From the NCBI GenBank assembly GCA_950295325.1, contig OX485805.1, positions 39,171,501 to 39,235,500 on the forward strand: a DNA stretch of 64,000 nt, written 5' to 3'. The DNA comes from Polytrichum commune (Eukaryota > Streptophyta > Polytrichopsida > Polytrichales > Polytrichaceae). Shown one piece after another: positions 47,341 through 57,508 of this stretch (position 1 is its first letter; the number at the start of each line of letters is the position of its first letter). The notes below the pieces were generated by a model. That model was not told the DNA's origin and made no database searches. It was given only the letters and a program-made list of their open reading frames with translations. The position numbers and the translations under genes were made by a program.

Positions 47341-48075
47341 GTTGCGAAGATGCTGCTGATTGTGAGAAAATAATTTATCATCGTCATTCATTTCAGCTGT
47401 AGGAGTTTCGGGAAACCTCTAGCCTACTCGCCTGAATGCCTGCATTTGACATCAGTGAAACTTAGGTGACGACATCAATTCGTAACAATGATCAGGGAGA
47501 ACTGGCAGTTAGTTACGAATGAACCAGTTGAGTTTGAGAAATAACCGGTTGAAGTTCTTCAAGACCGCAGGAAAAATACCGATCATTTTAGAGGAATTTA
47601 TAGAAGAACATACCCCAATTTAAGAAAGGAAAGCTGGAGGAGGTGAACATGTAACCTGTTTGACTTGCAAGCACTCGGATCTCAACCGATTATGCCCAAA
47701 AATCTCCCCGATCACTGGTTCGTAAATTGCTTCAGATGGTTGACAGAGACTTAAGTTTGTCGATTGGCTTCAAGCTAGCTGAATCCGGTGTGTTGCGAAG
47801 ATGCTGATTGTGGGAGAAATAATTATCCTCATTTCCTTTCAGCTGCAGCCAAGTCCTAGAATCCTCTAACCTACTCGGTTGAATGCCTGAGTTTGACATC
47901 AGGTCAAACTTAAGATGACGGCATCGGTTCGTAATAAGTTGCTTGCTAATTCCCCCGGGCCGCAGATTGTTGACAGAAACTTAAGTTCGTCGACCGGCTT
48001 CAAGTAAGGTTAAACTCAACATGCACCAAGCGTGGCGCGAAGATGCTGATGATTGTGGGAGAACTTATCCTCCTC
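47341..48075 (+). repeat. ~210-240-bp tandem repeat, about 2.2 units, first unit carrying a MITE
   Basis: Units begin at GTTGCGAAGATGCTG at 47341 and 47792, with a partial third at about 48035. Shared words are TTCAGCTG, CCTCTARCCTACTCG, TGAATGCCTG, TTTGACATCAG, TGACRGACTTAAGTT-like and GGCTTCAAG. Unit 1 is enlarged by the hAT-like MITE at 47486-47717; unit 2 lacks it. Confidence 0.85.
47486..47717 (-). mobile_element. hAT-like MITE, copy E
   Basis: 232 bp, reverse orientation to copy B, with ends CAATGATCAGGGAGA and TCTCCCCGATCACTG. The flanks are ATTCGTAA (47478-47485) and GTTCGTAA (47718-47725), an 8-bp target duplication with one difference. The neighbouring tandem unit at about 47910-47930 has the unoccupied sequence GGTTCGTAATAAG. 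Confidence 0.9.
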
Positions 48076-48079
48076 AGGG

Positions 48080-48458
48080 CAAAACCAGTGTCCCCAAATT
48101 TTTCTCCGGGTAAATTGATTCGTTTGTCTTATTCTCCCATCGCTGCAGTTCAGGGCAACTTCTCCACTGCAAAACAACTAAGTTTTGCAGGACATTCACT
48201 GAAAATCAAATGTAGAGTAGTTCAGTTCATCCGTTTTGCAGATGGGTGGGGCAATTCCAGACTGAACTGAACTACTTTGCATCTGATTTTCAGTTCAGTC
48301 TGGGATGGGTGGCGATGCTCTAAAGAGCGGCATTAACAAAGACCGGTGTTGGTGGTGCTCTAGCCAATGAGAGGCCATGTAGTTGGGTTACTTTTACTAC
48401 GAAGAACCTACTGCATTTCCCTCAAGCGCTTGTTGGGTGGTCACCAACCCAACAAACG
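48080..48458 (+). promoter_or_regulatory. probable original promoter/5' UTR of the CRAL-TRIO gene
   Basis: This is the sequence immediately upstream of the first copy of the duplicated start exon, so before the LINE insertion it would have been the native promoter. It contains a hairpin-forming inverted repeat (arms 48199-48229 and 48263-48293). I could not identify a reliable TATA box. Confidence 0.4.
48199..48293. repeat. imperfect inverted repeat, 31-bp arms, 33-bp loop
   Basis: CTGAAAATCAAATGTAGAGT... on the left pairs with ...ACTTTGCATCTGATTTTCAG on the right. About 27 of 31 positions are complementary. Flanking words (TTTTGCAG, GATGGGTGG) repeat around the arms, so it may be a small foldback element or a structured upstream region. 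Confidence 0.75.
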
Positions 48459-48532
48459 CTTGTTTTCATAATCTCATCGGTGACGGAGAGATGGCGATGA
48501 TTGCATCTTTGCAGACATGGGTGCCGTCCCAT
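48459..48532 (+). pseudogene. duplicated fragment of CRAL-TRIO exon 1 (left copy)
   Basis: 74 bp match 50157-50230 with four differences. They include 32 bases of 5' UTR and the first 42 bases of coding sequence; the ATG is at 48491. The left copy stops exactly where the LINE begins. From this ATG the frame runs into LINE sequence and stops at 48713-48715, so only a short chimaeric peptide could be made. Confidence 0.9.
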
Positions 48533-50156
48533 ACCTCTAGATGCCTTAGGAAATGGGAAAATCCTGTCGGGGATATGGTTGGTTTCTTCCATGAGGTGAA
48601 TATAATTCACACTACTAGAGGTCCGAAAAAGGAAGGCGCAAAAAGAAGAAATTATCTTTTTCTATGGGAAAACGGCCACCTTTGGATGGGACCCGGATCG
48701 TTGGTGATGGGTTGATGGATATTGCTTCCTTAACTATACCACCAAGTTTGGCAAAGACTCTGTCATCAACAGGAACCCGGGAATCACTCACGCAACGGAG
48801 AATGGCAAGGCTATCTCCTGGGCAACTACATGTTTTACTAGTTTCATATATGGGATTGGCTTTGATCCGGTAAAGAAGCCACCTTCATGTGGTCTATATG
48901 GCATAAAGTTGTGGCAGTTAACGAATGGAGGGCTCGCATCGTGCTAGCCTCTATCTCCAAACAATGTCCCTTTTGCCTCCCGAACATGAGCGAATCAATC
49001 AAACACAAATTTTGGGATTGCATTCAAGTTAGAAGGGCATGGAGATGGGCCGCATTCATCATGCATGAACTTTGTGGGATTAGAACTGGCAACTATATAT
49101 GATGGTTTCAACTGGAAGCAAGCCTTGTTTGGGGAAAGGATCCCTAAATTTGGCACCTTATGCATGACATTACATTTTGGACTATTTGAATTGAGCGCAA
49201 TGACAAAGTGTTCAACCATGACCAATGGCATGAATCTGAAGTCAAGGATAAGATTTGGGATGAGCTGATCATTTACGCCAAGGCGGCGTGGGAATGAGTG
49301 ATCAAGCGCATTAGAATTAGTAGCTTCTCCGCTGCGACCATGCTCCAAGGATTTGACCAAACATGGAGTGCTAGGAATGTCCTTTGTAGGAGTCCGAACA
49401 GTATGCATATTGCCTAGAATTGGACGAGACAAAGTAGGTAGTTTGATCAACTCCTTGGTAGTGTTGATGATGGCTTGGGGGTTGTTCTTGGCAAGTGGGG
49501 TGGGGGTGGTCCTTGGCTTGGTGGGTCTGGTGGGTTGTCGGTGGTAGGAGGTCTTGTGGCATGGCTATTACTTTTTACGTGGTGGTGTTTCTTGTCCGAG
49601 GGACCTTGCCTCCCCTTGATGTGAGTGCGTTTTCTTGGTTCTTAATTCACTTGGCGTTGGCTATGTTGGCATTCTGTCTCAAAAAGAAAAGAAAAGAAAG
49701 ACTACGCTCTGTTGCTGTTGGTTTTAGGTGATGCCATGTCAGTCCACCAACTTGGCTTGGCACTAGTTAGGAATGGCAATGTGATTGCAAGCTAAACTAC
49801 TTAGATTTTGGGGGTTACAAAGGCCAAGATAAAGTCATGTGGAAAATGGCCATTATTCTTACTCAACATTTTTGGGTTAGGAGTAAGTTCGTGTGCAAGC
49901 TAAGCGCCCAAAACATCCACTCTTCTCCCAATGAGAGAGCTCCAATGTGGCTTGCGCTCAAGCTCTGGCTATGGCGGACGCCTCACGCTGGATTTCCTCC
50001 TTATCCCCATCTGGAGGTTCCTACCTACCTACCAAATTCCTCCCTCCCTACCTTCCTGCATACCGGCCTCCTGGCCTAGTACTAGGTACCTATTTTGCTT
50101 ATCCTTTGTGAGTCAAGTTTCTGCTTGGAAAAAAGAAAGAAAGAAAGAAAGAAAGA
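48533..50156 (+). mobile_element. 5'-truncated LINE insertion (family L1-like) plus 3' extra segment
   Basis: The 1624-bp insert lies between the two 74-bp copies of CRAL-TRIO exon 1. From about 48625 to 49400 it encodes, with frameshifts, the same protein as the 34-kb LINE: MWSIWHKVVAVNEWRA, then CPFCLPNMSESIKHKFWDC (zf-RVT C-x2-C...H-x4-C). The LINE proper ends at GTTGGCATTCTGTCTC and an A-rich AAAAG run at about 49680-49700. A further 430 bp not seen in the other copies then ends in a second A-rich (AAAG)n tail (50131-50156) directly before the right-hand duplication. The reading frame is broken, so it is inactive. Confidence 0.85.
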
Positions 50157-50188
50157 CTTGCTTTCATAATCTCATCGGTGACGGAGAG

Positions 50189-52852
50189 ATGGCGACGATC
50201 GCATCTCTGCAGACATGGGTGCCGTCCCATGCGTCGGCAGCAGCGAGTGCGGGGAAGAAGAAACCTTGTGGTGCTGCATATGTGCCAGTTTCGGTGGTCG
50301 TCTCGAGGTTGGAGGCTTCAGTGAGCACCGAGTCATCATGGGGCAGGTCGGTTTTCGGCAGGGGTAAGTGGTAAGATTTGTAGCTGCCTTCTTCAATCAT
50401 ATCTTTCACCAAATTTTCCCCACAAGTTTCCTACAAAATTTTCCACAAATTTTACAAATGCCATCCACAAGCTGTCTCGGAGATACCTTCTCTAGTCTGA
50501 CCTTTGACCAAGTTTTCCCACAATTTTTCACAAATCGTTACAAATGGCATACGCAACTTGTCTCGGAGCTCTGGGAAATGGTTGGGTCCTTTCTCCATGA
50601 AGAGGATTTGTGAAGAGGAATTTCTCCGTGTTGGAGATATTGTGCAAGGTCTCAATCTAAGCTGTGGAGTAAATTTGAAGAACAATATGATTTTGGGCGG
50701 GAAAGTTTGGCGATGGCGGGTCGAACGACAATTTACTGTAGTCGACGAGCAAAATGTAGCTCATTATGTTGTTATGAACGATTGAATCCTGTCGATCGAA
50801 TTTGGAAACATTCATAAGCCCCCAAACTGCATTGTGCAATAGTAGTAGGTTGAGCTACTTTGGAGAATCCGAGGTAATCCTCGGAGATCATAGCACAAAT
50901 TGAGAATCTTCATCTTTGCAAAACGAGGGTTAGAATGTGGTGCTTTTTCGTGTCTGTGTGTAGGTTTGGAAAATCAGAAGGGAAAACCTAGCCATGACGC
51001 AATGACAGTCGTTGCGGCCGCACAGCAAAGCACAGAGGCGGTACTCAACACTGTGGAATATCCCACAAACTACCAGCAGGTGGATTTCTATAGGACTAAA
51101 AGCTCCTTTATTAATTATAATTGGTGTGAGGATTGACGAGTGCAGCAATGCATTGACACAAACAAACATTATCTTCAAACTTTTCCTGTTTTTAAATTGA
51201 CAGCTTGTGAGCGAGGTTAAGGCTCGTTTGGAGAAGGAACGTGCGGACCTACCTGCTGGTAAGAACGGCAGAGACGACGAGGAGACTCTTCTCTGGTTTC
51301 TGCGTGACCGGAAGTTCGATGTCGATGCAACCGTTGCAAAACTTGTCAAAGCTCTGGTAATCAAAATTTCTCTCCCGACATAAGTCAGCATTCTTAAGTG
51401 GTGTAGCACCCTAAATAAACATCTTGGAGAGGATGCACTCGGTGAGATTACTTTTTGGCAAGGTCTCGAAGTTAATCTTGGAAGATGGGAGAAGGCTTTG
51501 TCCGAAGATAGAGTATCAATGAGGTGTCGACTAATGAGAAGGCCACTTGACTATGCTTGGCATTCATGCATGTAATCAAGGACCTTGATTGTTGGATTTA
51601 TCCTTGAAGCTAGAATAGAAAGAGAACTTCCTACAGATATACTATGGAGCTTGTGAAGAATAGTTTCAGGGTTTAGGGTTTAGGGTACACAGTCTTGGGG
51701 ATGCTTTATACAATTTCTGTATAATAGGTTTCTGTGTAGGATTCTTGAAGGGAAGGTTAATTCTGTTGCTAAAGAGAGCCTATGGTGATGAGTTGTGCAG
51801 GAATGGCGAAAGGAGTTTGGGGTTGAGGATATCACAGAAGCGTCCATCTCGAGGGTAGCGTCCAGCGGGGAAGCTTGTCTGCACACTTCCCCAGATACAA
51901 AGGGAAGGCCTGTCATCATCGTTTCCGCAGCAAAGCATTTTCCAAATGTATGTTTCTCAATGACCTTTGTGAATTAAGATCACATTTAATGAACTTCCTT
52001 AACTTCTTGATGTTGAATCTCAAATCTCACCATGAAACAACACTGTGTTGGAATCTTTGACACCTTTGGGAGAAGGTTGAAGATCCACCATTGCCAATCT
52101 CCTTGACTTTTGGTTTTTTCCTTTCTTTGCATGTCGGCAGGATCAGCAATTGCTGGACAGCAAGAGGCTGTGCGTATATTTGATCGAGAAATCTCTCAGC
52201 CAATTGCCTCCTGGTGGTGAAACGTTTCTTGGCATTTTTGATCTCCGAGGCTTTCAGCAAAAGAATGGAGACCTCAAGTTTGTTAAGTTTCTGGTGAGTG
52301 ATGATGATCCCTTCTTTGGAGTAATATATTTGTATTTGTGCACAAGCAACACATTGCCAAACATTTCTTCATTCCGGGTCAGCAGTCTGACAACTTTGAT
52401 CTGCCAACATGTGATTATGCACAGATTGATGTTTTCTTCAATTACTATCCCAAGAGACTTGGACAAGTTCTATTCGTTGATGCCCCCTTCATCTTTCAAC
52501 CCGGCTGGAACATGGTCAAGCCTTTGGTCGGAAAGTATGCTGCATTGGTAAGTAACCCACAATCCTCTTCCTTCCTCTTCCTTCCTCTTCTGCACTCAAC
52601 AAACTCCTGTCTGGATATGGCTCATTTTGACCCCCTCTGCCATTGCATTGCATCACATGGCTCTTCGCAAAGTGATGTTTTTGCAATCTAGAGCTCCCTT
52701 TTATTCTGCTGAGGGCCTGTGGAATTTTGGCTACACAAAGGATCAACAATTGTGTGTGATTCTTGACTTGGCAGGTTCGATTCTGTTCCGCTGACGAAGT
52801 GAGGAATGAGTACTTCACACCAGACACAGTTCCCGAATCATTCAGACAGTAG
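50189..52852 (+). CDS. plastid-targeted CRAL-TRIO (Sec14-like) lipid-binding protein, seven exons
   Basis: Exons read as 50189-50363, 50964-51040, 51204-51356, 51801-51947, 52141-52293, 52425-52547 and 52775-52852, all GT-AG, product 301 aa. Residues 1-60 are Ser/Ala/Val-rich with few acids ([20 protein letters not shown]), as in chloroplast transit peptides. The CRAL-TRIO N-terminal part is about 85-140 ([19 protein letters not shown]). The lipid-binding domain is about 165-300 ([58 protein letters not shown]). It ends [14 protein letters not shown]. Sec14-like proteins carry phosphatidylinositol or other lipids; the ligand here is unknown. The exon 6 acceptor is set at GCACAG (52424), giving [11 protein letters not shown]; an upstream GGTCAG would add residues. 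A LINE sits just 5' of the start codon. Confidence 0.88.
51668..51686 (+). repeat. short telomere-like motif in intron 3 of the CRAL-TRIO gene
   Basis: Two to three TTTAGGG units (GGGTTTAGGGTTTAGGG). Telo-box-like motifs occur in plant introns and promoters; no function is claimed. Confidence 0.5.
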
Positions 52853-56869: not shown

Positions 56870-57508
56870 CTAATCCTGTGACTGCTTATCACCCTTCCCA
56901 CGCAACGTTTGCAAAAAGACAGGCCAATTGAGCTGCGCCTCCTTCCACCCAAGTGCCGAACCTTCCCTAGCCGGGTCCCAGCTGGCCGACAAGACACCAT
57001 ACGTGATGCCTGCGCCAGCGGAGCCAAATGTAAGCAACGAAGTGAACAATGGCAGCCACTCCGGCACATCCACCTTCCTCACAGCCTTCAAGTAGTAGTA
57101 GAGCACGAAAAATGCCACTCCAACCGCAAATGGGATGCCCACGGTGAATGTAATGCGCTTCAACATGCGGTTGGTGACCACTTCCGGCACCACATCATCA
57201 TCATCTGCCTCTGCCTCTGCCTCTGATTCGTCCTTTGCCTGTTTCAAGCTTTTTCCACTCCCCGGTTGCGGCTGCCTCTGCGTCTGCGGTTGCGGTTGTC
57301 TCTTCTTCTCCGGAGCTTTTCCAAAACCCTTGGGCGACTTCTGCACGGCGAATACTAAAACCCCTGTGCGACGTTGGCCGCAATTGGCATTGACATGCAA
57401 ACAGGGTAAGTTTGAAGAAGATGAGGAGAAAGCATGCCTAGCTGGCAGTGCGAGGAGCGTTGTGGGACGGCAGTGCAAAGCGGCATCACAAGAAATGGAG
57501 GGCAACAT
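56870..57508 (-). CDS. PAM68: PAM68, photosystem II assembly factor (DUF3464), chloroplast
   Basis: A single intronless frame of 212 aa. Residues 1-55 are Ser/Cys/Ala-rich and look like a transit peptide. KSPKGFGK (57-64) is followed by a Gln/Pro-rich linker (70-83) and an acidic stretch (92-105). The conserved core is PEVVTNRMLKRITFTVGIPF (108-127), a first membrane helix (about 119-143), VDVPEWLP, a second helix (about 152-175), then SWDPAREGSALGW (176-188) and NWPVF (194-198). This order is that of PAM68, a thylakoid protein known from Arabidopsis to help assemble early photosystem II intermediates. The ATG at 57506-57508 begins MLPSISCDAA; I chose it because the transit-like segment starts there. 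A long antisense frame (57135-58097) overlaps it and is not taken as a gene. Confidence 0.93.
   Translation of the reverse strand: MLPSISCDAALHCRPTTLLALPARHAFSSSSSNLPCLHVNANCGQRRTGVLVFAVQKSPKGFGKAPEKKRQPQPQTQRQPQPGSGKSLKQAKDESEAEAEADDDDVVPEVVTNRMLKRITFTVGIPFAVGVAFFVLYYYLKAVRKVDVPEWLPLFTSLLTFGSAGAGITYGVLSASWDPAREGSALGWKEAQLNWPVFLQTLRGKGDKQSQD

Follow-up and report, generated by a model that had tools for sequence, protein, structure and literature searches.

A LINE-bearing insertion between two copies of the start region of a CRAL-TRIO gene in Polytrichum commune

In the 64,000-nucleotide stretch of Polytrichum commune DNA analysed here (the window), a 5′-truncated LINE, a single-copy segment (X) and a second A-rich tail stand between two copies of the start region of a CRAL-TRIO gene that is open downstream (Table 1). 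This arrangement is best explained by a single retrotransposition event whose target-site duplication was unusually long and in which X would have come along by 3′ transduction or template switching, a reading that we hold to be probable though well short of secure.

Table 1. Features of the insertion and of the neighbouring gene (window positions)
Feature	Position	Strand	Basis
Left flank of about 135 bp, from the high-copy repeats to the left copy; presumed side of the old promoter	48324..48458	+	Repeat matches end at 48319-48338
Left copy of the duplication: end of 5′ UTR, ATG at 48491, 13 codons, 2 extra bases	48459..48534	+	Repeat and genome search
Decayed 5′-truncated LINE: 3′ part of ORF2 with zf-RVT-like remnant, 3′ UTR, own tail 49681-49701	48535..49701	+	Family homology
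Segment X: single-copy, non-LINE, pyrimidine-rich at about 49980-50040	49702..50126	+	Genome search, limit of family homology, pyrimidine percentile
Second A-rich tail: GG, A6, then (GAAA) units; adjoins right copy	50127..50156	+	Sequence read
Right copy of the duplication, in place within CRAL-TRIO exon 1	50157..50232	+	Repeat and genome search
CRAL-TRIO gene, 7 coding exons: 50189-50363, 50964-51079, 51204-51356, 51801-51947, 52141-52293, 52425-52547, 52775-52852 (including stop)	50189..52852	+	Open frame, GT-AG introns, CRAL_TRIO

A direct repeat carrying the start codon

Direct comparison of 48459-48532 with 50157-50230 on the plus strand gave identity at 70 of 74 positions, as the sequence-only reading had claimed, and the repeat extends by 2 bases to the edge of the LINE (48533-48534 against 50231-50232, with 1 mismatch), which makes it 76 bp long with 5 differences. 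When the left copy was searched against the 408-Mb genome of the same organism (64 contigs, the window being part of contig 3), the matches were itself and the right copy only (95%, E 3.6e-25). Both copies contain the ATG, at 48491 on the left and at 50189 on the right, together with the 13 further codons that had been predicted to lie within the repeat, and in the right copy the 74-base repeat ends at 50230. At all 5 differing positions the right copy has C or G and the left copy T or A, a base pattern that would fit decay of the left copy, with a two-sided P of only 0.0625 and a direction read without an outgroup.

The right copy belongs to a Sec14-like gene with 945 open coding bases (314 codons), GT-AG borders at 6 of 6 introns and, in the joined frame, a match to the CRAL_TRIO domain (E 4.3e-26). 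The complete coding exon said to remain downstream of the insertion is indeed there, and joins the rest of this seven-exon gene. A DNA search with 50157-51400 found no other copy in the genome besides the left 74 bases. Kinship with the chloroplast Sec14 protein CPSFL1 is possible, as a lead only. Intron 1 contains a 60-base direct repeat (50423-50482 and 50509-50568; 72%).

On the other side of the insertion, the unique sequence before the left copy amounts to about 120-135 bases, beyond which lie high-copy repeats (40 scored of 2923 first-look candidates); among these 40, matches end at 48319-48338, one of them reaching 48338. The nearest repeat, at 48076-48323, is about 245 bp long, recurs at near 90% identity in many places, holds a 32-base inverted repeat and gave sub-threshold matches to microRNA precursors on both strands; it looks like a short inverted-repeat transposon lying beside the left flank. 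Just upstream of it, other high-copy repeats match 47486-47719 and 47717-48076, which makes the former upstream region of the gene a patchwork of mobile elements. Elsewhere in the window, a minus-strand open frame at 56870-57508 has a chloroplast-like N-terminus and hydrophobic stretches, and it may resemble PAM68-type proteins.

A LINE, a single-copy segment and two tails

The LINE, placed with the plant-type non-LTR retrotransposons, is a member of an interspersed family with many copies (70-78% identity in long matches at the best other places; 40 scored of 706 first-look candidates), and one decayed frame retains a zf-RVT-like remnant (E 3.3e-5; 24.9 bits, under the curated cut-off of 27.5). 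With a query starting at 48301, the homologous piece begins at 48535-48545 in 27 of the 29 family loci fetched, so the left copy does stop at the LINE, to within about 2 bases. Other family copies carry homology farther upstream and the window copy begins at 48535, which identifies it as 5′-truncated. At the other end, no match among the 29 loci extends past 49702; the family 3′ end, TTCTGTCTC followed by A in other copies, equals window position 49680 or thereabouts, and the LINE's own A-rich tail occupies 49681-49701. We therefore rejected the whole of 48533-50156 as LINE, since family homology ends by 49702 and the remainder is single-copy. Since the LINE stops at about 49701, after a tail of its own, and the next 425 bases are non-LINE, the duplication flanks the LINE and X together.

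These borders amend the sequence-only reading in two respects. Its insertion of a LINE into the start exon, with a long duplication that includes the ATG, stands for a 5′-truncated LINE, but the inserted block is that LINE plus 425 bp of single-copy sequence plus a second A-rich tail. Likewise, the right copy begins straight after an A/G-only tract (50127-50156), as had been stated, but this tract is not the tail of the LINE, which ends at 49701. Taken alone, the LINE is not bordered by a short repeat (near score 12, against a 95% shuffle level of 17), so the 76-bp repeat is the sole candidate target duplication. In an alignment with 19 other copies, the window LINE carries 22 private substitutions in 508 conserved columns, 20 of them transitions (14 being C to T or G to A); among the 20 terminal branches its own, at 0.111, is the third shortest. 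The decay of the LINE (22/508) and the divergence of the two repeat copies (5/76) fit a single age.

Segment X, searched whole and as halves, had no second match in the genome, and on these grounds X as a repeat or as a retrocopy with a living source was rejected. No Pfam match was found at E 0.1 in its two longest forward frames. An Rfam search over 47400-51400 (E up to 1) returned only sub-threshold microRNA-like matches, which fell on the hairpin repeat at 48197-48295 and none in X; X as a known structured RNA was rejected accordingly. At 49980-50040 its pyrimidine content reaches at least the 99th percentile of the window in most 80-base windows. X has a CpG ratio of 0.34, where the sequence upstream of one other gene in the window has 0.67 and the left flank 0.60; this low value says little, since for the window as a whole, taken in 200-base pieces, the lower quartile is 0.31.

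Some of these properties would suit X as the native upstream sequence of the gene. The LINE would then have landed some 430 bp before exon 1 with no duplication of its target, and a 76-base filler, copied from the exon close by, would have sealed its 5′ end. X and the gene are equally single-copy, the pyrimidine-rich stretch of X would suit such a position, and the LINE has a real tail at 49701; yet the filler would be long, the start of the right copy at the end of an A-rich tract would be a coincidence, and the poverty of X in CpG is a further, weak point on the same side. We regard this course of events as very unlikely.

The presence of exon-1 sequence on both sides of the LINE could also be read as an ordinary segmental duplication of promoter and exon 1 that the LINE split later. 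Under that explanation X and the left flank would be old duplicates, a relationship that was rejected: their similarity score is 20 against a shuffle mean of 20.0, and 161 of 300 shuffles scored as high. The similarity between the two sides moreover halts at the LINE edge and at the A tract, and we give such a duplication almost no credence.

The two A-rich tails resemble each other (73% over 30 bases) and X lies exactly between them, as if part of one tail had been duplicated. Both observations would suit two steps, in which the LINE arrived first, with the 76-bp target duplication, and X with its tail entered the LINE's A-rich tail later as a separate retrocopy, its own duplication being hidden in the A/G tract. 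Against this, no retrocopy source is known, X being without a second copy and without the Pfam match sought in its frames, and a single event is simpler. A two-step history is accordingly unlikely in our judgement.

Duplication length and the course of the insertion

One event is supported by the manner in which the repeat is placed, meeting the 5′ edge of the LINE on the left and the end of the A-rich tract on the right. A-rich purine tracts of at least 18 bases occur only 6 times on the plus strand of the 64-kb window, and it is therefore unlikely that the right edge of the repeat falls at one by chance. From the two junctions we infer that the duplication is a target-site duplication. The proposed course would begin with a LINE RNA bearing extra 3′ sequence, gained either by 3′ transduction of the downstream flank of its source or by a template switch onto another polyadenylated RNA. 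A nick in exon 1 of the CRAL-TRIO gene would have been the site of its reverse transcription, and a cut in the second strand, some 76 bases downstream of that in the first, would have led to the duplication of 76 bases of exon 1 with the ATG among them. The 5′-truncated LINE, X and the A tail would have been left between the copies, the left one remaining beside the old upstream region. The coding sequence would have survived because the right copy is still continuous with the remainder of the gene.

This course has features in common with known target-primed LINE insertions, namely 5′ truncation, an A-rich tail and a direct repeat at both edges. It departs from the typical case, with its 10-20 bp, in a duplication of about 76 bp, a second, non-LINE segment, a junction in a start exon and an ATG in both copies. 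The order of LINE, own tail, extra sequence and second tail is that of LINE 3′ transduction, and a passage in PMC12458276 describes 3′ transductions as frequent in LINE-1 data. Unlike in a demonstrated 3′ transduction, X is not found beside a source LINE elsewhere in the genome; it may work like one if the source locus has been lost. The missing second copy of X nevertheless counts against one event, since a surviving source should be only moderately diverged. So would the implied first-strand nick, ACAAG/CGTTTG, which is not a T-rich site of the L1 type, and so would the length of 76 bp, far beyond the 12-16 bp at other family copies.

The family lengths come from 48 loci besides the LINE-bearing ones of the window, reduced to 45 after 3 repeat copies were dropped and to 44 after L019, a duplicate of L018, was taken out; 9 of the 44 extended beyond the 5′ side of the locus and 3 had no recognisable 3′ end, which left 32 for assessment. 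Edge repeats of 12-16 bp, above the 95% shuffle level near the junction, were found in 6 of these 32 copies (L009, L018, L027, L049, L057 and L059), where about 1.6 passes in 32 tests would be expected by chance. No long edge repeat was found among the 32 assessed copies, the other 26 of which were unreadable. We did not count an above-shuffle match in L006, whose borders, like those of L032, were wrong (lengths 153 and 144), nor a 37-base match in L023 that lay away from the junction. Because the other family members show 12-16 bp, the 76 bp of the window copy looks like an outlier and not a habit of the family.

Published LINEs mostly make short duplications too, and longer cases exist among them. 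According to passages in PMC6895275, APE LINEs make duplications of 10-20 bp as a rule, and the rotifer element R9 one of 126 bp; R9 differs from the window family in being rDNA-specific with a fixed long duplication. For zebrafish ZfL2-2 in wild-type DT40 cells, a section of PMC2666801 gives alterations of at most 20 bp in 24 of 25 insertions and a duplication of 1228 bp in one. Given such cases, 76 bp is rare yet has precedent, a rare form of an ordinary event. Part of a dog-genome preprint (PMC12458276) adds that very long inferred duplications may stem from homology-mediated events. The literature consulted on long duplications, plant LINEs, exon and promoter cases and break repair does not name the present case, from which we claim no absence from print.

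A further explanation is a staggered double-strand break: its protruding end, about 76 bases long, would have been filled in and then joined round captured DNA already containing the LINE, X and (GAAA)n, with no LINE machinery involved. Paired nicks are known to give duplications when breaks are repaired, and an excerpt of PMC8355091 describes short ones arising at opposed nicks in patch-mediated repair. The nick site here is not L1-like, and a 16-base inverted repeat whose right arm spans the left end of the duplication (48423-48462; arms 48423-48438 and 48447-48462, 94%, 8-base loop) might have favoured a break. However, patch-mediated repair gives tandem duplications, whereas here 1.6 kb with the hallmarks of a retroelement separates the copies. 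A break would also leave to chance the A-rich tract exactly at the right junction, and with 6 such tracts per 64 kb chance is improbable. Repair of this kind seems to us quite unlikely, and one retrotransposition event remains the preferred account.

Transcription and survival of the gene

The left ATG at 48491 opens a frame of 74 codons that runs into the LINE. A leader transcribed from the old upstream side would carry this frame as a decoy, and for that reason our guess, placed first among the options, is that transcription of the gene now probably starts in X or in the end of the LINE. Pyrimidine-rich stretches can mark plant promoters and leaders, and the one in X, at 49980-50040, could be a candidate feature of either kind. 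Within 48451-48720 no strict splice donor pattern (GT, two purines, G) occurs, weak evidence since about 1 would be expected there by chance. A bacterial promoter scan, which is not applicable to a plant-like gene, was discounted. The sequence-only reading allowed the gene only two ways out, a new promoter within the LINE or removal of the LINE from its leader by splicing; this choice was too narrow, since X might contain the promoter, the leader might be long or expression might have changed.

To evaluate whether the gene has been maintained, we compared its frame with the decay of the neighbouring LINE, which in the same 20-copy alignment has 10 private indels, of which 8 have lengths not divisible by 3. 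At the rate of this LINE, 6.5 frameshifts would be expected in the 945 coding bases and none was observed (P about 0.0015), an expectation taken from the indel count of one LINE, where other copies have 1 to 11 private indels; at the lowest family rate an intact frame would be unsurprising. That the frame is intact while the LINE gathered its 10 private indels suggests that the CRAL-TRIO gene has been kept under selection since the insertion.

It is conceivable, if rather unlikely, that a single retrotransposition separated the gene from its old promoter and at the same time equipped it with another, the duplication handing the start exon downstream and X supplying the start, so that the promoter was replaced in one step made harmless by the length of the duplication. 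With a duplication of 12-16 bp, as at other family copies, the whole of the ATG, the 13 codons and the end of the leader could not have stayed downstream. Whether an exonic insertion destroys a gene can thus hang on how long the duplication is. Should transcripts start in X, the locus would offer a natural and dated example of a retrotransposon replacing a promoter; otherwise, it would show a gene coping with a leader that holds 1.7 kb and a decoy start codon.
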